Assembly (NCBI GenBank): GCA_009692185.1
Contig: SHZT01000005.1
Span: 1 to 64,000 of the forward strand
DNA: 64,000 bases
DNA from: Gemmatimonadota bacterium
GTDB taxonomy: Bacteria > Gemmatimonadota > Gemmatimonadetes > Gemmatimonadales > GWC2-71-9
Direction of reading: 5' to 3'
Part shown: positions 5,910 to 40,733 of the stretch, piece by piece
Layout: every line of letters begins with the position of its first letter
Numbering within the stretch: the stretch's first letter is position 1
The notes under the pieces: generated by a model
Seen by the model: only the letters and a program-made list of their open reading frames with translations
Told to the model about the DNA's origin: nothing
Databases searched by the model: none
Made by a program: the position numbers and the translations under genes

Positions 5910-5960
5910 CATAACGGCATAACGGCATAACGGCATCCCCACGCCGTCATGCCGTTATGC
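5910..5960. repeat. CATAACGG tandem repeat forming a hairpin
   Basis: Three units of CATAACGG plus CAT (5910-5936) are followed, after 12 bases, by ATGCCGTTATGC (5949-5960). The last 12 bases of the array (GCATAACGGCAT, 5925-5936) are its exact reverse complement. The hairpin lies between the propeller stop and the ribosome site of the next gene, so it could act as a terminator or limit translation. Confidence 0.8.
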
Positions 5961-5972
5961 AGCGGAGGGCAC

Positions 5973-7253
5973 ATGAACAGCCTGGCACGCCGTGATTTCG
6001 TTGGCCGAGTCCTCGGAGGCGTGGCCGCCGCCACGGTTGCTCCGTCTGCCATAGCCCGCGCGTCAGAACGCTGGCGCGAGCCGTTGCCGTCGCTCACCGC
6101 TCCCGACGACGAGGCCTACTGGAAGATGGTCCGGGACCAGTTCCCGATCCGGCCCGGTTACACCTTCCTGAACGCCGCCAACCTGGCTCCGTCCCCCTAC
6201 GCGGTCAGCGACACCGTCGCGGACCTCACCCGGGAGATCGACCGGGAGATGTCGCAGCAGAACCGGAGCAGGTTCCCCGCCCTGAGGGAGGCGGCCCGGA
6301 CCGGTCTGGCCGAGTTCCTGGGCGCCGAGGCGGACGAGATAGCGATCACCCGCAACACCAGCGAGAGCAACAACACGGTCCTCAACGGGCTCACGCTCGG
6401 CCGGGGCGACGAGGTGGTCATCTGGGACCAGAACCACCCGACGAACAACGTCGCCTGGGACGTGCGCGCGGAGCGCTATGGGTTCACCGTGATCAAGGTG
6501 AAGACGCCGCCGCCGCCGACCACGGCGGCCGCCCTCGCCGCACCGTTCCTCGCGGCCGTCACGCCGCGAACCCGGGTCCTCGCCGTCACCCACGTCTCCA
6601 GCTCGTCCGGCGTGGGCCTGCCGGTCAAGGAACTCTGCGCCGCCGCACGGCAGCGCGGCGTCCTGACCCTCGTGGACGGCGCGCAGACCTTCGGCTCCCA
6701 GTCCGTGAACCTGCACGACATGGGCTGTGACTTCTACACGGGGAGCGCGCACAAGTGGTTCATGGGCCCGCGCGAGACCGGCGTGCTCTACGTCCGGAAG
6801 GAACGCGCGGCCTCTCTCTGGGCCAGCGTGGTCGGCGTGGGGTGGGACGGGGCCAAGGACCGCGGGGCGCGGAAGTTCGAGTCGCTCGGCCAGCGCGACG
6901 ACGGCGCGGTCTCGGCGGTGGGGCGGACGGTGGAGTTTCACAACGCCATCGGGCGGGACCGGATTGACGCGCGGGTGCGGGCCCTGGCGGCCCACCTCAA
7001 GACGCGGCTCAAGGAAAAGGTGCCGGGCGTCCAGTTTCACACGCCGGTGGACGCAACGCTTTCCGGCGGCATCGTGATATTCACCCAGCCCAACCTGGAT
7101 CCCGGCCCCGCGGCGACCGCGCTGTATGAGAAGCACCAGATCACGTGCGCGACCACGGGCGGCGAATTCCGCGGCCTCCGGTTTGCCCCGCACATCTACG
7201 TGTCTCTCCAGGAACTCGACAGAGCGGCTGATGCGGTGGCAACTCTGGTCTGA
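5973..7253 (+). CDS. Tat-exported class V aminotransferase-like protein
   Basis: 426 residues. The N-terminus has a twin-arginine signal (SLARRDFVGRVLGG...) ending near IARA. The rest is a PLP fold-type I enzyme of the NifS/isopenicillin-epimerase-like group: TRNTSESNNTVLNGL, DGAQTFG and the Schiff-base lysine in TGSAHKWFMGP. Reaction unknown; cysteine desulfurase or C-S/C-N lyase are family options. ATG 5973 has GGAGGG just upstream. The stop codon lies inside a long composite hairpin. Confidence 0.85.
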   Translation: MNSLARRDFVGRVLGGVAAATVAPSAIARASERWREPLPSLTAPDDEAYWKMVRDQFPIRPGYTFLNAANLAPSPYAVSDTVADLTREIDREMSQQNRSRFPALREAARTGLAEFLGAEADEIAITRNTSESNNTVLNGLTLGRGDEVVIWDQNHPTNNVAWDVRAERYGFTVIKVKTPPPPTTAAALAAPFLAAVTPRTRVLAVTHVSSSSGVGLPVKELCAAARQRGVLTLVDGAQTFGSQSVNLHDMGCDFYTGSAHKWFMGPRETGVLYVRKERAASLWASVVGVGWDGAKDRGARKFESLGQRDDGAVSAVGRTVEFHNAIGRDRIDARVRALAAHLKTRLKEKVPGVQFHTPVDATLSGGIVIFTQPNLDPGPAATALYEKHQITCATTGGEFRGLRFAPHIYVSLQELDRAADAVATLV

Positions 7254-7370
7254 GCGCCGAGAGGCAGGACGCCGGACGCTTCTGACCCGAGGCGCTCGAC
7301 CGAGAAAGGAAGCGGCCGTGCGCCTCGGGTCTTTTCGCGTCCTTCGCCCTGCCCCCTCGGCGCTCAGACC
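7247..7370. repeat. 124-base composite hairpin between convergent genes
   Basis: Outer arms GGTCTGAGCGCCGAG (7247-7261) and CTCGGCGCTCAGACC (7356-7370) are perfect complements over 15 bases; inner arms GACCCGAGGCGC (7284-7295) and GCGCCTCGGGTC (7320-7331) over 12. The stretches between also match imperfectly. The outer left arm includes the stop codon of the aminotransferase gene. It sits between two converging genes and probably ends transcription from both sides, though it lacks a T tract. Confidence 0.8.
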
Positions 7371-7379
7371 TGCCTGGTT

Positions 7380-7988
7380 CTACCTGACTGGGTTCTTCAG
7401 AACCCCTACCCCACTCACTTCGATCTCCACCGTGTCGCCGGGCGCCAGCGGCCCGACGCCGTCCGGCGTGCCCGTCGCGATCAGGTCCCCCGGTTCCAGC
7501 GTCATGATCCTGGAGATGTAGGACACCAGGTACACGAGGCCAAAGACCATCTCCGAGGCCTTCGCATGCTGGCGTTCCTTCCCGTTCACCCGCGCCATGA
7601 CCTCGATATCGCCGTACTTCGCCGGCAACGGCACGACGCGCGGGCCCATGGGGCAGAACGTGTCAAAACCTTTCGCGCGGGTCCACTGGCCGTCCGCCTT
7701 CTGGAGATCGCGAGCCGTGACATCGTTGACGCAGGTGATGCCGGCGATCCCCGCGATGGCCTCGCTCTCGCTGACATTCCGCAGCCGCTTGCCGATCACG
7801 ATGCCGATCTCGGCCTCGTGTTCGACCTGGTTCGAGTCCGGCGGCAGGATGATGGTATCGCCATCCGCGATCACGGCGGATGGTGGCTTGAGAAACAACA
7901 GCGGCTTGTCCGGCACGTCGTTGCCGAGTTCCTTGGCGTGGGCAGCGTAGTTCCGGCCGACACAAACGATCTTTCCGGGACGATTCAC
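7380..7988 (-). CDS. Fumarylacetoacetate hydrolase-family protein
   Basis: 202 residues, the length of a single-domain FAH enzyme. KIVCVGRNYAAHAKELGN, the metal-binding EHEAEIGIVIGK, CVNDVTARDLQ, KGFDTFCPMGP and GDLIATGTPDGVG are the family landmarks. Members hydrolyse or decarboxylate 2-oxo acids with C-C cleavage (acylpyruvases, oxaloacetate decarboxylases). GTG 7988 overlaps the stop of the esterase gene (GTGA); a longer frame exists but would run into that gene. Confidence 0.9.
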   Translation of the reverse strand: MNRPGKIVCVGRNYAAHAKELGNDVPDKPLLFLKPPSAVIADGDTIILPPDSNQVEHEAEIGIVIGKRLRNVSESEAIAGIAGITCVNDVTARDLQKADGQWTRAKGFDTFCPMGPRVVPLPAKYGDIEVMARVNGKERQHAKASEMVFGLVYLVSYISRIMTLEPGDLIATGTPDGVGPLAPGDTVEIEVSGVGVLKNPVR

Positions 7989-8686
7989 TTCTTTCCCTCC
8001 TTTTCCCGTTCGTGGATTTCGGGCATCACCGACACGAGCACCTTCCACACATTGTCGGCGAGGATCCGGTGGCCTGCCGGCGTCGGATGAATGCCATCGA
8101 CCTGGTTGAGCTCGGGATGCCCCCCAACCCCCTCCAGCAGGAACGGGATCAGCGCCGCCTTGTTGTCGCGAGCGAGGTCCACGAACATCCGCCGGAATTC
8201 CTCTGTGTAGGGGCGGCCCAGGTTGGGCGGCGCCTGCATGCCGGCCACGACGATCTGCACCTGCGGATACTTTGCCCGCGTGCGACTGATGATTTCCTGG
8301 AGGTTTTCTTTCGCCGCCTTGAGTTCGAGCCCGCGCAGGGCATCGTTGGCCCCCAACTCAAGCACCAGGACGGCCACCGGCTGGCCCAGCAGCCATTCGA
8401 TGCGACGGAGCCCGGCCGCGGACGTCTCGCCGGACACGCCGGCGTTCACCACTTCGACGGCGAGGCCGAGGGAGTCAAAGCGGTTGTGGAGGAGGGCCGG
8501 GTAGGCCTCGTCGGGATCAACTCCGAGCCCCGCCGTAAGTGACGTACCAAAGAACAGGATCCTCGCATGTTCCGGGGCGGACGGGACGATCGAGACGGTC
8601 GAGTCCGCACGCACCTGACTCACCTCGCGTCTGCCACAAGCCGTGAGAACACACAAGAGAAGCGCCGTCAGTATCTTTGTCGTCAT
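7985..8686 (-). CDS. SGNH/GDSL lipoprotein esterase (TesA-like)
   Basis: 233 residues: lipoprotein signal with LTAC, then an SGNH hydrolase. Block I is FFGTSLTAGLG (GTS in place of the usual GDS but nucleophile Ser kept), the Gly block is VVNAGVSGETSA, Asn is in LGANDALRG, and the Asp/His pair is in DGIHPTPAGH. Members are arylesterases or lysophospholipases on the cell envelope. The start codon overlaps that of the divergent propeller gene in the sequence CATG (8684-8687). Confidence 0.88.
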   Translation of the reverse strand: MTTKILTALLLCVLTACGRREVSQVRADSTVSIVPSAPEHARILFFGTSLTAGLGVDPDEAYPALLHNRFDSLGLAVEVVNAGVSGETSAAGLRRIEWLLGQPVAVLVLELGANDALRGLELKAAKENLQEIISRTRAKYPQVQIVVAGMQAPPNLGRPYTEEFRRMFVDLARDNKAALIPFLLEGVGGHPELNQVDGIHPTPAGHRILADNVWKVLVSVMPEIHEREKEGKK

Positions 8687-9584: not shown

Positions 9585-10268
9585 ATGCTGATTGTCGCGG
9601 AGAATCTCGAACAGACCTACCTGAGCGCGGGCAAGCCGCTCACTGTTCTTCGAGACGTCAATCTCTCCATCGCGCCGCAGGAGTTCGTCGCCATTGTCGG
9701 TCCGTCGGGGAGCGGCAAGACCACGCTGCTCGGCCTCCTCGCGGGGCTCGACGTGCCGTCCCGCGGATCCGTGCGGATTGATGGGCTGAGCCTGGGCGAC
9801 CTCACCGAGGACCAGCGGGCGCGGCTCCGCGCCGAGAAGGTCGGGTTCGTCTTCCAGACATTCCAGCTGATCCCGACGCTCACGGCGCTCGAGAACGTCC
9901 TCGTTCCCATCGAGCTCCGTGGCAATGGCGCAGGGCGCACGGCGCACGGGAAGGCCACCGAGATGCTCGAGCGGGTCGGCCTGGGCGACCGGGTGCATCA
10001 CTACCCGGCCCAGCTGTCGGGCGGCGAACAGCAGCGGGTGGGGCTGGCGCGGGCGTTTACCAGCGAGCCCAAGATTCTCCTCGCGGACGAGCCCACCGGA
10101 AGTCTCGACACGGAGACGGGGAAAACGGTGATCGCGTTGCTCGAGCAGCTGAATCGCGACGCGCAGACCACCCTCGTCCTGGTGACGCACGACGGGGCCC
10201 TCGCTTCCCGCGCCCGCCGAGTCATCCGGCTCGAGGGCGGGAAGATCGTGTCCGACTCGACGACCTAG
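9585..10268 (+). CDS. ABC transporter ATP-binding protein, LolD/MacB type
   Basis: 227 residues with Walker A GPSGSGKT, Q-loop FVFQTFQLIPTLTALENV, signature LSGGEQQR, Walker B ILLADEPTG and H-loop VTHD. This is the LolD/YbbA-like class that pairs with FtsX-type permeases to move lipoproteins or other substrates out of the inner membrane, or to drive mechanotransmission. The permease gene follows immediately and shares one base. Confidence 0.92.
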   Translation: MLIVAENLEQTYLSAGKPLTVLRDVNLSIAPQEFVAIVGPSGSGKTTLLGLLAGLDVPSRGSVRIDGLSLGDLTEDQRARLRAEKVGFVFQTFQLIPTLTALENVLVPIELRGNGAGRTAHGKATEMLERVGLGDRVHHYPAQLSGGEQQRVGLARAFTSEPKILLADEPTGSLDTETGKTVIALLEQLNRDAQTTLVLVTHDGALASRARRVIRLEGGKIVSDSTT

Positions 10269-12898
10269 TGGCGCCTTTTTCGCTGGTCATGGCCTGGCGC
10301 GAAAGCTGGCGCAGCCGGCGGCGACTGGCGCTCTACATGAGCGCCGTGAGCCTGGGCGTGGCGGCGCTGGTCGCCATCAACTCATTCAGCGCCAACGTGG
10401 CCGCGTCGGTGAAGGGCCAGGCCAAGGGCCTGCTCGGCGCAGACGTCGAGATCAGGAGCCGCGGCAAATGGACCAAGCCGATGGCCGCCCTGCTCGATTC
10501 CCTTTCGGGCTCCGGCGTCCCGATTTCGCGCGTGACCAGCTTCGCGTCGATGGTCCTGTCCCCCCGCACCGGGCTCACCCGGCTCGTCGAGGTGCGGGCG
10601 GTGACCGGCGGGTTCCCGTTCTATGGCAGCATCGACACCGACCCACCCCTTTTGTGGGGCGGCCTCCAGGCGCGGCGGGGAATCCTGGTGGACCCCGCAG
10701 TCCTGATCCAGCTCAACGCGCTGGTCGGCGACACGCTGACCATCGGAGACGCGCGCTTCCCGGTGTCGGGCGTCATCACCAGCGCGCCGGGCGACATCGG
10801 GATCCGGACAGCCGTGGGGCCGCGGGTGTTCATGCCGGGCCAGTACCTGGACGAAACCAACCTGCTCCGTTTCGGGAGCCGCGCGCAGTACCGCGCGTAT
10901 CTCCGGATGCCGGATGACAAGAGCACCCAGCGGTTCCTGAACCGGCACAACCGCCTGTTCCGCGCGAACAACGCGAGTTACGGCACGGCGGACGACCAGG
11001 AGGAACAGGTCTCCAGAATACTGGACCAGCTCGCGCGCTACCTCGGGCTCGTGGGCCTGATCGCGCTCCTCCTGGGCGGGATCGGCGTGGCCAGCGCGGT
11101 GCACGTGTTCGTAAAGGAGAAGCTCGACACCGCCGCACTCCTGCGCTGCCTCGGCGCCAAACAGCGAACAGTCATTTCGATTTACCTGATCCAGGCCATG
11201 GCGCTGGGACTGCTCGGCGCGGTGGCCGGCGTGGTGCTTGGCGTTATCGTGCAGGCCACGCTTCCCCGCGTCGTACGGGACTTCCTCCCGCTGGACGTCG
11301 CGATCTCGATCGACTGGACCTCGGTGTTTGCCGGGCTGGCCATTGGCGCGGGAACGGCGGCGATCTTCGCGCTGCTGCCGCTCCTCGCACTCCGCGATGT
11401 CACGCCGCTCCGCGCGATCCGCCACGAGTTCGAGACCCAGCGCCGCCGGTTCGACCCCTGGCGGGCCGGCGCCTGGGCAGTGCTCGGCGGCGCCGTGGTG
11501 CTCCTCTCGGTGTGGCAGGCCCCTCAGCGCTTCATCGGGTACTGGTTTGCCGCCGCCGTCGCGGGGACGACGTTCATCCTGTGGCTCACCGCCATCGGCC
11601 TCATGCGCGGCACCCGCCGGTTTTTCCCGGCGCGGGCGAGCTACGTCGTTCGCCAGGGCATCGCCAACCTGTTCCGGCCGCAGAACCAGACCGTCGCGGT
11701 CGTCCTGGCCATCGGCTTCGGCGTGTTCCTCATCGCCACCATCTACGTCGTCCAGAAGAACCTCGTCTCGCAGTTCTCGTTCGACACCCGGAGCGACCGG
11801 CCCAACCTCGCCTTGTTCGATATCCAGACCGACCAGAAGGACAGCGTCTTCCGCATGCTCGCCGCCCGCGGTATCGCCGGCGCCAACCTGGTGCCGATCG
11901 TGCCCGGCCGCATTTCGCGGATCAACGGGGTCCGGATCGACTCCCTGAAACGGGACTCGACCGGGAGGCTCCCCGCGAGGTGGGCAACGCGGCGCGAGTA
12001 CCGGAACAGCTACCGGGATGCCTTGGTGGGTGGAGAGGAACTGGTGGCGGGTAAATGGTGGGGCGGAACGGGCGGGCGGGACGGGCAAGGCGGGCTGCGG
12101 GATACATCGCCCGTCCAGCCCGCCCCGCCCGTCCAGCCCGCCCCGCCCGCCCCGCCCGCCCCGCCCGCCCCGCCCCTTCCGGCAATCTCAATGGAGCAGG
12201 ATCTGGCAACGGAACTCGGCGTTGGCCTGGGAGACCAGATGACGTGGGACGTGCAGGGCGTGATGATCGAGACCCGGATTACCAGCATCCGCAAAGTGAT
12301 CTGGGCGCAATTCCAGCCCAACTTCTTCGTCGTATTCGAGCCCGGCGTGCTCGAGAAGGCGCCGCAGACACTGGTGACCCTCACGCGGGTCCCGGATGCC
12401 ACCAGGCGGGCCGAGCTCCAGCGCGATCTCGTCATGGCGTACCCCAACATCTCGGCGCTCGACCTCACGCTGGTCCAGCAGGCGCTCGACGGGATTATCT
12501 CCAAGGTGACGCTCGCGATCCGGTTCATGGCCCTCTTCAGCATCGCGAGCGGACTGATCATCCTGGTCGGCGCGCTGGCCACGAGCCGGTTCCAGCGGGT
12601 CCGCGAGGCGGTTCTGCTCAAGACACTCGGCGCGGGCGCCCGGCAGATCCGGCAGATCCTCCTGACCGAGTATTTCGCCTGGGGCTCCCTCGCCGCCCTG
12701 ACCGGCGTCCTGCTGGCGGGCGTCGCCGGGTGGGCGCTGACCCGGTTTCTCTTCGAGGTTCCCTTCGCCCTGCCCACGGCCCAGCTCGCCGGGGTGTGGC
12801 TGGGCGTGTGCGCCCTGACCACCACCCTGGGATTCCTGAACTCGGGCGAGGTTCTCCGGAAGACACCGCTCGCCGTGTTGCGGGAGATGAGCGAGTAG
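10268..12898 (+). CDS. FtsX-like ABC permease (YbbP type) with a proline-rich insertion
   Basis: 876 residues with two FtsX core regions, each with a MacB-like periplasmic domain: first membrane block near residues 260-370, further segments near 400-500, and the last block at about 740-870. With the ATPase it resembles YbbA/YbbP. GTG 10268 overlaps the ATPase stop by one base. Between about residues 595 and 640 lies a G/P-rich low-complexity stretch (repeated APP) encoded by an inverted GC repeat that looks inserted into an otherwise conserved domain. Confidence 0.88.
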   Translation: MAPFSLVMAWRESWRSRRRLALYMSAVSLGVAALVAINSFSANVAASVKGQAKGLLGADVEIRSRGKWTKPMAALLDSLSGSGVPISRVTSFASMVLSPRTGLTRLVEVRAVTGGFPFYGSIDTDPPLLWGGLQARRGILVDPAVLIQLNALVGDTLTIGDARFPVSGVITSAPGDIGIRTAVGPRVFMPGQYLDETNLLRFGSRAQYRAYLRMPDDKSTQRFLNRHNRLFRANNASYGTADDQEEQVSRILDQLARYLGLVGLIALLLGGIGVASAVHVFVKEKLDTAALLRCLGAKQRTVISIYLIQAMALGLLGAVAGVVLGVIVQATLPRVVRDFLPLDVAISIDWTSVFAGLAIGAGTAAIFALLPLLALRDVTPLRAIRHEFETQRRRFDPWRAGAWAVLGGAVVLLSVWQAPQRFIGYWFAAAVAGTTFILWLTAIGLMRGTRRFFPARASYVVRQGIANLFRPQNQTVAVVLAIGFGVFLIATIYVVQKNLVSQFSFDTRSDRPNLALFDIQTDQKDSVFRMLAARGIAGANLVPIVPGRISRINGVRIDSLKRDSTGRLPARWATRREYRNSYRDALVGGEELVAGKWWGGTGGRDGQGGLRDTSPVQPAPPVQPAPPAPPAPPAPPLPAISMEQDLATELGVGLGDQMTWDVQGVMIETRITSIRKVIWAQFQPNFFVVFEPGVLEKAPQTLVTLTRVPDATRRAELQRDLVMAYPNISALDLTLVQQALDGIISKVTLAIRFMALFSIASGLIILVGALATSRFQRVREAVLLKTLGAGARQIRQILLTEYFAWGSLAALTGVLLAGVAGWALTRFLFEVPFALPTAQLAGVWLGVCALTTTLGFLNSGEVLRKTPLAVLREMSE
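12079..12177. repeat. GC-only inverted/tandem repeat inside permease gene
   Basis: A G-rich arm (GGACGGGCAAGGCGGGCTG, 12079-12097) and a C-rich arm (CAGCCCGCCCCGCCCGTCC, 12116-12134) match as reverse complements at 17 of 19 positions. The C-rich side continues as 9-base repeats of CCCGCCCCG to about 12177. The repeat unit keeps the reading frame and codes for repeated Ala-Pro-Pro. Confidence 0.8.
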
Positions 12899-36761: not shown

Positions 36762-36823
36762 GGGAAAAGGGAAACGGGAAAAGGGAAAAGTACGACTGCG
36801 ACCTTCGACCTTTCCCTTTTCCC
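36762..36823. repeat. GGGAAAA-array hairpin between convergent genes (site 1)
   Basis: GGGAAAAGGGAAA (36776-36788) and TTTCCCTTTTCCC (36811-36823) are perfect 13-base complements; a second copy of the left arm precedes it at 36762-36774. It lies between the V4R gene and the converging phosphoribosyltransferase gene and could terminate both. It is A/G-rich in a GC-rich genome. Identical 13-base arms recur at 40056/40116. Confidence 0.9.
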
Positions 36824-38241: not shown

Positions 38242-40073
38242 ACGTCCCTCGCACGATCGTCCAGCTGTTCTTCGACGCTGTCGAGCACTACAGCACCAAG
38301 CGCGCGGCGCTCCGGTATCGGGTAAACGGCGCCTGGCGGGACGTGACCCACCAGGAGCTGGCGCGGCGAGTCCGGCAGTCGGCCTTCGGGTTGATCGAAC
38401 TGGGCATCAAGCCGGGAGATCGCGTGGCGATCCTCTCGGGCAACCGCCCGGAGTGGGCCATCGTGGACTACGCGTGCATCCTGGCGCGGGCCGTGGACGT
38501 GCCCATTTACCCCACGCTGCCGCCCCGCCACGTGCGCCACATGCTCCGCGACTCGGGAGCGAAGATCGCGTTCGTCTCCGATCCCGAGCAGTTCCAGAAG
38601 ATCCGGGAGATCCGTCACGAACTGCCGGACCTCCAGCACGTCATCGGCTTTTCCGGCGCCACCGACGACGGCGACGTGCTTCCCTTCCTGCGGTTTATCC
38701 AGATCGGCGCGGCGGCGGAGCCCAAGTACCCCACGCTCGTGGCGGACGGGCTCGCGGCCCAGCCGGACGACGTGGTGACGCTCATTTATACGTCTGGCAC
38801 CACGGGCGACCCGAAGGGGGTCATGCTCACGCACAAGAACTTCTGCACCAACGTGGTCGCGGCGCTCGAGGTCCTGCCCATTGGGCCGGATGACACCTGT
38901 TTGTCGCTCCTGCCGCTCTGCCACAGCTTCGAGCGCATGGGCGGCCACTACACGATGTTCCACGGCGGCTGCACCATCAATTACGCCGAAACGATGGACA
39001 CCGTCGCGCGGGACATGAAAGAAACCCGGCCGACGATCGTGCTCGGCGTGCCGCGGCTCTACGAAAAGTTCTATGCGCGGGTGCTCGACCGCGCCGTGTC
39101 GGGCGGGGGGCTCAAGCGCCGGATCTTTTTCTGGTCCTGGAAGAGCGGCGAGCGCTGGGCCGACACGGTCCTTGCCGGGAAACCGGTGCCCGCGCTCCTG
39201 GGAATATCCAAGCGCATCGCGCAGTCCCTGGTCTTCAACAAGATGAAGGCCGCCACCGGCGGGCGCATCCGGTTCTTCGTGTCCGGGTCGGCGCCGCTGT
39301 CAGCCGAGATCGCGCGGTTCTTCTACGCCGCCGGCCTCCCGGTGCTCGAGGGCTACGGCCTCACGGAGACGTCGCCGGTCGTCACGTTGAACTCCCTCCA
39401 GGCACCTCGCATCGGCACGGTTGGCCCGCCGATCCCGGGCGTCGAGGTCCGGTTGGCGGAAGACGGAGAGATCCTGGTGCGCGGCCCCAACGTGATGGCC
39501 GGGTATTTCAACCAACCCGAAGCCACCCGCGAGGCGATTGACGGCGAGGGATGGTTTCACACCGGCGACGTGGGCGAGTTCGACGAGAAGGGCTATCTCC
39601 GGATCACGGACCGGAAGAAAGACCTGATCAAAACCTCCGGCGGCAAGTTCGTCGCGCCCCAGCCCATCGAGAACCTGGTCAAGGGCAGCAAGTTTGTGCT
39701 CAACGCGGTGGTGCTGGGCGACAAGCGGAAGTTTCCGATCATTCTCGTGGTGCCGAACTGGGATGCGATCCGGTCGTGGGCCGACGAGCGGCGATTGACG
39801 GTCTCGAACCTCTCGTCGGCATTGGGCCAGCCGGACGTCGTCGCCAAGATCGAGCGCGAGGTCATGGGCCGCCTGCGGGACCTCGCGCACTACGAAATGC
39901 CGAAGAAGGTCCTGCTGGTCGAGAACGACTTCACCATCGAGGGTGGAGAGCTGACGCCGACGTTGAAAGTGAAGCGGAAGGTGGTGGAGGAACGGTACAA
40001 AGACCTCATTGACGGGGCGTACGAGGATTCGGAAGGCGAAGGGGAAAAGGGAAAAGGGAAAAGGGAAACGTAG
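38238..40073 (+). CDS. Long-chain acyl-CoA synthetase (AMP-binding family)
   Basis: 611 residues. YTSGTTGDPKGVMLTHKN (A3), GYGLTETSPV (A5), GWFHTGDVGEF (A7), RKKDLIKTSGGKFVAPQPIE (A8, with the Ac Lys region) mark a FadD15-like acyl-CoA synthetase that activates fatty acids through acyl-AMP. GTG 38238 overlaps the previous stop. The last 12 residues (GEGEKGKGKRET) are coded by the left arm of a GGGAAAA hairpin and are not part of the enzyme fold. Confidence 0.9.
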   Translation: MNVPRTIVQLFFDAVEHYSTKRAALRYRVNGAWRDVTHQELARRVRQSAFGLIELGIKPGDRVAILSGNRPEWAIVDYACILARAVDVPIYPTLPPRHVRHMLRDSGAKIAFVSDPEQFQKIREIRHELPDLQHVIGFSGATDDGDVLPFLRFIQIGAAAEPKYPTLVADGLAAQPDDVVTLIYTSGTTGDPKGVMLTHKNFCTNVVAALEVLPIGPDDTCLSLLPLCHSFERMGGHYTMFHGGCTINYAETMDTVARDMKETRPTIVLGVPRLYEKFYARVLDRAVSGGGLKRRIFFWSWKSGERWADTVLAGKPVPALLGISKRIAQSLVFNKMKAATGGRIRFFVSGSAPLSAEIARFFYAAGLPVLEGYGLTETSPVVTLNSLQAPRIGTVGPPIPGVEVRLAEDGEILVRGPNVMAGYFNQPEATREAIDGEGWFHTGDVGEFDEKGYLRITDRKKDLIKTSGGKFVAPQPIENLVKGSKFVLNAVVLGDKRKFPIILVVPNWDAIRSWADERRLTVSNLSSALGQPDVVAKIEREVMGRLRDLAHYEMPKKVLLVENDFTIEGGELTPTLKVKRKVVEERYKDLIDGAYEDSEGEGEKGKGKRET

Positions 40074-40128
40074 GACCTTCGCAACCATCCTTTACGCGCG
40101 GCCTTACTTTTCCCCTTTCCCTTTTCCC
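40040..40128. repeat. GGGAAAA-array hairpin between convergent genes (site 2)
   Basis: Left arm: repeated GGGAAAA from 40041 ending in GGGAAAAGGGAAA (40056-40068). Right arm: TTTCCCTTTTCCC (40116-40128). Perfect 13-base stem, and the same two arms as at 36776/36811. Here both neighbouring genes read into the arms: the synthetase ends in GEKGKGKRET and the converging gene in KRETGKGKGEK. Confidence 0.9.
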
Positions 40129-40733
40129 GTCTCCCGCTTCACTCCGACCCACACCCCCGGCCCGCTCGCCATCCGCTCGATCCCTGGCGCTTCTCCCTTG
40201 TCGGATAATACGACGATCCGTTGACCCGGCAGGACAACCCGCGCCGCCTCGCTGAGCCATTTCTCGTTCGCCCGCTCGCCGCCCACGACCACGCCCCGCA
40301 CCGAAGCCGTGCGAAGGGGAATGAAGCCGGGAGATTCCAGGAGCGAGAACATGGTGTCGGGGAAGACGCCGTCCGGCGCATTGATGCCCACGAGGTGCAC
40401 GTCGCCGAGGAGTTGGCCCAGGGCGTGCGCGGCCCGCGTGGCGGTGCCCACGAGCGCCACGTAGCCCCCGGGTCCGCCAAGTCCAAGAAATGCATGAATT
40501 GCGGCGGCATCCGGAGCGGCGGCGGTTCTATCTGCGTCATCTGTCATTTCTGTGCGATCTGTGGCCCCAAAACGCGCGACGCCCTTCTCTACCCAATACT
40601 CGGCGTTGCACACCGGACAACCGATCATGCCGCGCGTGATCCGGCGGTTGCGCATCTCGCCGGTGGCCACGACGAGGTGGCCATCGGCGTGGTCGCCGGC
40701 GCAGCGGAGGAGGTCGGTCAGTTCAATGAACAT
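40104..40733 (-). CDS. Trm112-like zinc-ribbon protein with an unknown C-terminal domain
   Basis: 209 residues. The N-terminal 55 residues ([42 protein letters not shown]...) have the Trm112/YcaR pattern with a CPVC knuckle. The following 150 residues contain a Rossmann-like GGPGGYVALVGTATRAAHALG but no recognised catalytic motif. It may be a diverged methyltransferase partner. The tail KRETGKGKGEK is repeat-derived. It overlaps the SDR gene by 11 bases. Confidence 0.6.
   Translation of the reverse strand: MFIELTDLLRCAGDHADGHLVVATGEMRNRRITRGMIGCPVCNAEYWVEKGVARFGATDRTEMTDDADRTAAAPDAAAIHAFLGLGGPGGYVALVGTATRAAHALGQLLGDVHLVGINAPDGVFPDTMFSLLESPGFIPLRTASVRGVVVGGERANEKWLSEAARVVLPGQRIVVLSDKGEAPGIERMASGPGVWVGVKRETGKGKGEK

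Follow-up and report, generated by a model that had tools for sequence, protein, structure and literature searches.

A hairpin at the end of an aminotransferase gene in a Gemmatimonadota bacterium is probably a relict of a palindromic, MITE-like mobile element

Short palindromic repeats have been described in several bacteria, and the comparisons made here follow the available portions of the reports cited. QMITE2 of Coxiella burnetii is a 150-190 bp MITE with a hairpin, found mainly in 3' untranslated and intergenic sequence; it is a target of the IS110-type element IS1111, and shortened copies without terminal repeats occur (PMC5896051). The enterobacterial repeats ERIC (RU-1) and YPAL (RU-2), of 127 and 168 bp respectively, are palindromic, mostly intergenic and highly folded as RNA, and empty and filled sites show that YPAL is mobile, with targets at dyad symmetry (PMC2229807). 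SPRITE, a hairpin repeat of Streptococcus pneumoniae, is enriched near gene 3' ends and has been proposed to be a co-opted terminator (PMC3049150). The family described here resembles QMITE2 in being a small hairpin MITE with an IS110-family gene inside one copy, but QMITE2 has direct repeats of 7-11 nt and variable sequence together with a GTAG REP, whereas the duplication here is a 4-bp YTAR and both host and sequence are different (PMC5896051). ERIC and YPAL also have other hosts; the termini of ERIC are 5'-TA, the duplications of YPAL range from 3 to 26 bp, and a stop-codon target is not among the features set out in the available part of that report (PMC2229807). The ends of SPRITE are AAAA/TTTT with a long T tract, whereas here four T occur in a single copy and relatives carry YTAR duplications (PMC3049150). 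IS5, which duplicates Py-T-A-Pu and most often CTAG (PMC5493358), has the same YTAR target and is a possible mobiliser, but no IS5-type transposase with the ends of this family was found in the seven draft genomes searched. The family is thus of a known general kind but is a new palindromic MITE-like family, set apart from the known ones by their descriptions, and no such palindromic family was found in the open-access literature searched.

The window (the whole stretch of DNA analysed, 64,000 nt) contains a class-V aminotransferase gene on the + strand (5949-7253, start at 5949 or 5973; Pfam PF00266) that converges on a FAA hydrolase gene on the - strand (7380-8048, start at 7988 or 8048; Pfam PF01557). 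The first-pass annotation had described a 124-base inverted repeat between them with nested perfect stems of 15 and 12 bases, and both the coordinates and the predicted fold bear this out. The whole repeat spans 7247-7370 (124 nt, without strand). Read on the + strand, its outer arms (7247-7261 and 7356-7370) pair perfectly over 15 bp and its inner arms (7284-7295 and 7320-7331) over 12 bp, while a 6-bp middle stem of GGACGC (7274-7279) and GCGTCC (7337-7342), flanked by two internal loops, has a geometry shared by the family. The T at 7296 faces 7319 in a T.T mismatch common to the ten sequences of our alignment A4. Positions 7227-7390 fold at -104.4 kcal/mol (z -8.78), and none of 200 dinucleotide shuffles was as low. 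The left arm does contain the aminotransferase stop codon, as claimed (TGA, 7251-7253): the first seven bases of that arm, GGTCTGA, are the end of the gene, and the far arm mirrors them as TCAGACC. The further description of the repeat as joining the two gene ends holds for the aminotransferase, whose end enters it, but not for the FAA hydrolase, whose TAG stop codon (7380-7382) lies 9 nt outside the right arm.

In a 464-kb sample of this genome (the window plus 400 kb), only 7247-7370 and a (GGGAAAA)n site have a perfect inverted repeat of 15 bp or longer within 130 nt. A scan of the same sample for compact palindromes gave 25 with a score of at least 13, among which 7247-7370 (score 20) is tied third; in three length-matched Markov controls the numbers were 4, 5 and 4 and the best scores 19, 13 and 14. 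A simple gene caller puts 12 of the 25 inside genes and 13 between them, the latter divided among co-directional (8; 344 junctions), converging (5; 51 junctions) and diverging pairs (0; 50 junctions). This distribution and the position of our hairpin between converging genes favour a reading in which it is an ordinary terminator, evolved locally to serve both genes, and its likeness to sequences in relatives is convergence of GC-rich palindromes. The same reading gains from G001, a genome of the same genus with the same gene order, in which the junction holds a hairpin of GGCGGTA units (L017, about 1398-1465) that includes both genes' stop codons. The G001 hairpin is unrelated to ours, matching neither of the covariance models R1 and R2 introduced below, so something besides the element can favour hairpins at this site, and a hairpin at the junction may be useful whatever its source. 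A run of TTTT (7332-7335) follows the inner stem on the + strand and could act as a weak intrinsic terminator. However, a terminator pattern scan (loop of 3-8, at least five T in eight) returned no terminator-like site at the hairpin, and the T run is confined to the window copy among the copies of the family. No comparable T run follows the stem on the minus strand, and no promoters were found. From its sequence, a terminator role for the window hairpin is plausible, though we lean against it; that the hairpin arose locally as a terminator and resembles its relatives by convergence we consider unlikely, given the comparisons that follow.

Related long inverted repeats, for which the first-pass annotation had proposed a search, are present in related genomes, so one half of the refutation it had named, that no similar elements exist, fails. 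A blastn search of 101 genomes gave one convincing relative, the MAG Gemmatimonadetes bacterium B60T1B8 (G025), which has three full copies about 92% alike and one internally deleted copy; used as query, the G025 element recovered one copy in G037 and half copies in G006. The G006 half copies (L102, L132-L136) consist of a left or a right arm only, one of them at a contig end. Matches in G033, G097 and G015 look by eye like chance similarity in coding sequence and were set aside. The alignment of the window repeat with the G037 copy spans both arms; its score of 32.5 exceeds the best of 500 dinucleotide shuffles (26.0) and of 500 shuffles that keep the arms paired (27.0). Against the three G025 copies the scores are 31.5-32.0, with shuffle maxima of 25.5-28.0. 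This pairwise support is independent of the covariance models, and a fit of sequence and stem geometry to a dispersed family well beyond that of pairing-preserving shuffles argues against convergence.

R1, the first covariance model, was run on 102 genomes of the taxonomic family at E <=0.01 and matched 11, of which eight were kept (G000, G001, G019, G025, G037, G309, G320 and G413). The weak matches in G050, G425 and G044 look like other palindromes and were left out of the count. The second model, R2, was built from unaltered sequences and run on 394 genomes of the class at E <=0.001; it matched eight, all in the same taxonomic family, and those absent from its training are G025, G376 and a third G001 copy. 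Together the models place full copies in at least nine genomes, all of one taxonomic family, these counts being lower bounds with few candidates scored per genome. Full copies number eight in G320, two in G019, two in G001 besides the third found by R2, and one each in G309 and G413. The dispersed copies expected of a MITE are therefore present in relatives (eight in G320, three in G025), and the source genome has one copy: neither blastn nor R1 and R2, which scored only some candidates per genome, gave a second. The family core within the window copy (7256-7361, + strand) scores 69.5 bits with R1 and 74.8 bits with R2, although both models had the window sequence in their training, and its membership of the family rests on this core.

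A short pattern allowing up to two mismatches matched 35 of the 394 genomes, but a backward control pattern also matches many genomes, so only matches within hairpins were used. Its exact form occurs in six stretches among 84,980 genomes, three of which are the G025 copies; the other three, in a deltaproteobacterium, Agromyces and Novosphingobium, are pattern matches only, and a hairpin check was uninformative, missing the true G025 copies too. No Rfam family reached its gathering score, the only hits being microRNA precursor models, which reached 35.6-44.8 bits where 168 and 268 are required.

All folded copies share three stems, outer, middle (about six pairs) and inner (12-14 pairs), with small internal loops between them. 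Most also have a single mismatch after the inner stem, which is T.T in the ten rows of A4 in the orientation chosen (that of G019 having been picked by it) and C opposite A in G025. In A4, both partners have changed in 17 of 38 pairs. Double-change cells number 46 against 17.7 in shuffles, a value reached by none of 500, and fall to between 0 and 11 when the partner is slid, a count to be read with the structure drawn from the same sequences, some rows close relatives and the shuffles blind to relatedness. Outer arms differ between two neighbouring G001 copies, yet each copy matches itself, and homologous cores carry different ends in G320, G025 and G037. Such joint variation of the arms, the T.T mismatch and the different ends around a homologous core could all be read as marks of a structured RNA or a protein-binding DNA hairpin whose core would be under selection for a function of its own, mobility in one genus being secondary. 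The patchy distribution (8 of 394 genomes, with a single copy in the source genome), the different neighbouring genes of the copies examined and the lack of an Rfam family at gathering score speak against this, and joint arm variation also arises by template switching; we regard a selected functional core as improbable. The copies offer a natural hairpin set for testing arm repair by template switching against selection for structure.

In one related genus, labelled g16, the element is mobile: it has many copies, terminal repeats, a YTAR duplication and sites that are empty in congeners. Terminal inverted repeats are present in G320, G309 and G413, and by eye in G037, and presumably resemble those of IS5. 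Identical 4-mers stand on both sides of the element at eight of ten g16 loci, which amounts to seven of nine events, L153 and L163 representing a single insertion. The duplicated 4-bp target is YTAR, in the forms CTAG, TTAG or CTAA. The site of the L155 insertion in G309 is empty in G045 and G016, where the joined sequence has one CTAG, and that of the L152 insertion in G320 is empty in G413 and G016. A stray hairpin thereby takes its place in a mobile family for which related genomes offer both filled and empty sites. A search of seven draft genomes with the terminal-repeat pattern found no transposase with the same ends; its 16 matches fall in G320 and G413 only, and those examined are element copies or remains without a transposase of their own. 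One copy in G320 (contig C47, L193) has an IS110-family transposase gene inside it (802-2441; Pfam PF02371 and PF01548), with both halves of the element seen, and in G413 a similar gene (L197, 2010-3355) adjoins half an element with its break at the same position.

In g16, 18 insertion events were examined. At 14 of them YTAR forms the stop of an adjacent open frame whose coding score is good, and at three of these (L152, L155 and L199) it does so for each of two converging genes. The four events away from stops are L153/L163, L161, L197 and L206. A nineteenth mini-copy, L234, was found later and is not counted; it has CATAAG at both ends and also lies away from a stop. In the 464-kb sample of the source genome, 92 of 366 YTAR sites are stop codons (P 4e-6 for 14 of 18), or 92 of 217 when only sites outside genes are taken (P 0.0025). 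In sequence flanking the g16 loci, which offers few sites, the figure is 4 of 38. The enrichment is explained in part by selection against insertions inside genes. Outside g16, the G037 copy lies at the stop codon of a neighbouring gene and the G376 copy, by eye, between two converging stops. By contrast, divergent genes flank G019a, G019b follows a stop at a distance of about 90 nt, and at least 22 nt separate the G025 copies from called stops. We tentatively suggest that this palindromic mobile family in practice homes to stop codons, YTAR being the stop itself. The palindromic CTAG could serve both converging genes, its duplication rebuilding both and leaving a hairpin past each; the core would persist across genera while ends are exchanged and template switching restores the match between arms, and old copies would in this way come to include host stops. 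A target tetranucleotide that is rare except at stops would explain simply how a transposable element can spread through a compact, GC-rich genome while leaving genes unbroken.

The window copy has neither a family-type terminal repeat nor a target duplication, and its TGA stop codon differs from YTAR. It is probably a relict copy of the dispersed, non-coding, palindromic element, the term relict reflecting the absence of a recognisable terminal repeat and target duplication. The sequence downstream of the aminotransferase in G006 and G021 is other than that in the window, and these genomes therefore provide no empty site. The protein of the window ends in ...AVATLV* and its G006 orthologue in ...AVAELV*, and by this comparison the last codons and TGA look native. 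The mirrored GGTCTGA/TCAGACC is consequently best explained by arms that have extended into the gene. Copying from coding sequence and extension into it had both been offered as origins for the arms: as a whole they were not copied, the core being homologous to a dispersed palindromic element, and extension would account for the outermost 7-9 bp only.

Template switching is known to extend and mirror arms in this way (PMC8794818, in the part of that report available). It could in principle have made the inverted duplication on the spot with no element involved, and the mirroring of host coding sequence in the outermost 7-9 bp is what such an event would leave. This reading, which we consider very unlikely, leaves unexplained why the inner 106 nt resemble copies that other genomes carry at unrelated sites. 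For a relict copy of the element we propose instead that, in this lineage, an ancestral copy inserted at the aminotransferase gene's 3' end and that the copy's own ends were then lost or rewritten. Template switching between arms during replication would have kept the arms matched and may have copied the final 7-9 bp of the gene, as a mirror image, into the far arm, placing the stop codon inside the hairpin. The weakest step is that a hairpin past the stop would be tolerated as harmless; it may end or stabilise the + strand transcript.

Other palindromes were seen in the source genome. A palindrome of GCATAACG units lies just upstream of the aminotransferase gene (5917-5960). Mostly intergenic palindromes made up of (GGGAAAA)n heptads together with the complementary sequence occur at 36776-36823 and 40038-40140 of the window and on contig C3 of the same genome at 638-733, 117988-118089, 257020-257096 and 305564-305665; their G-rich strands might form quadruplexes. 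A palindrome of GGCGGG-type units at 12060-12153 is apparently read through in frame within an 876 aa open frame (10268-12898) that by eye is ABC-transporter-permease-like, and the compact palindrome scan found a similar palindrome within a gene on C3 (261947-262020).
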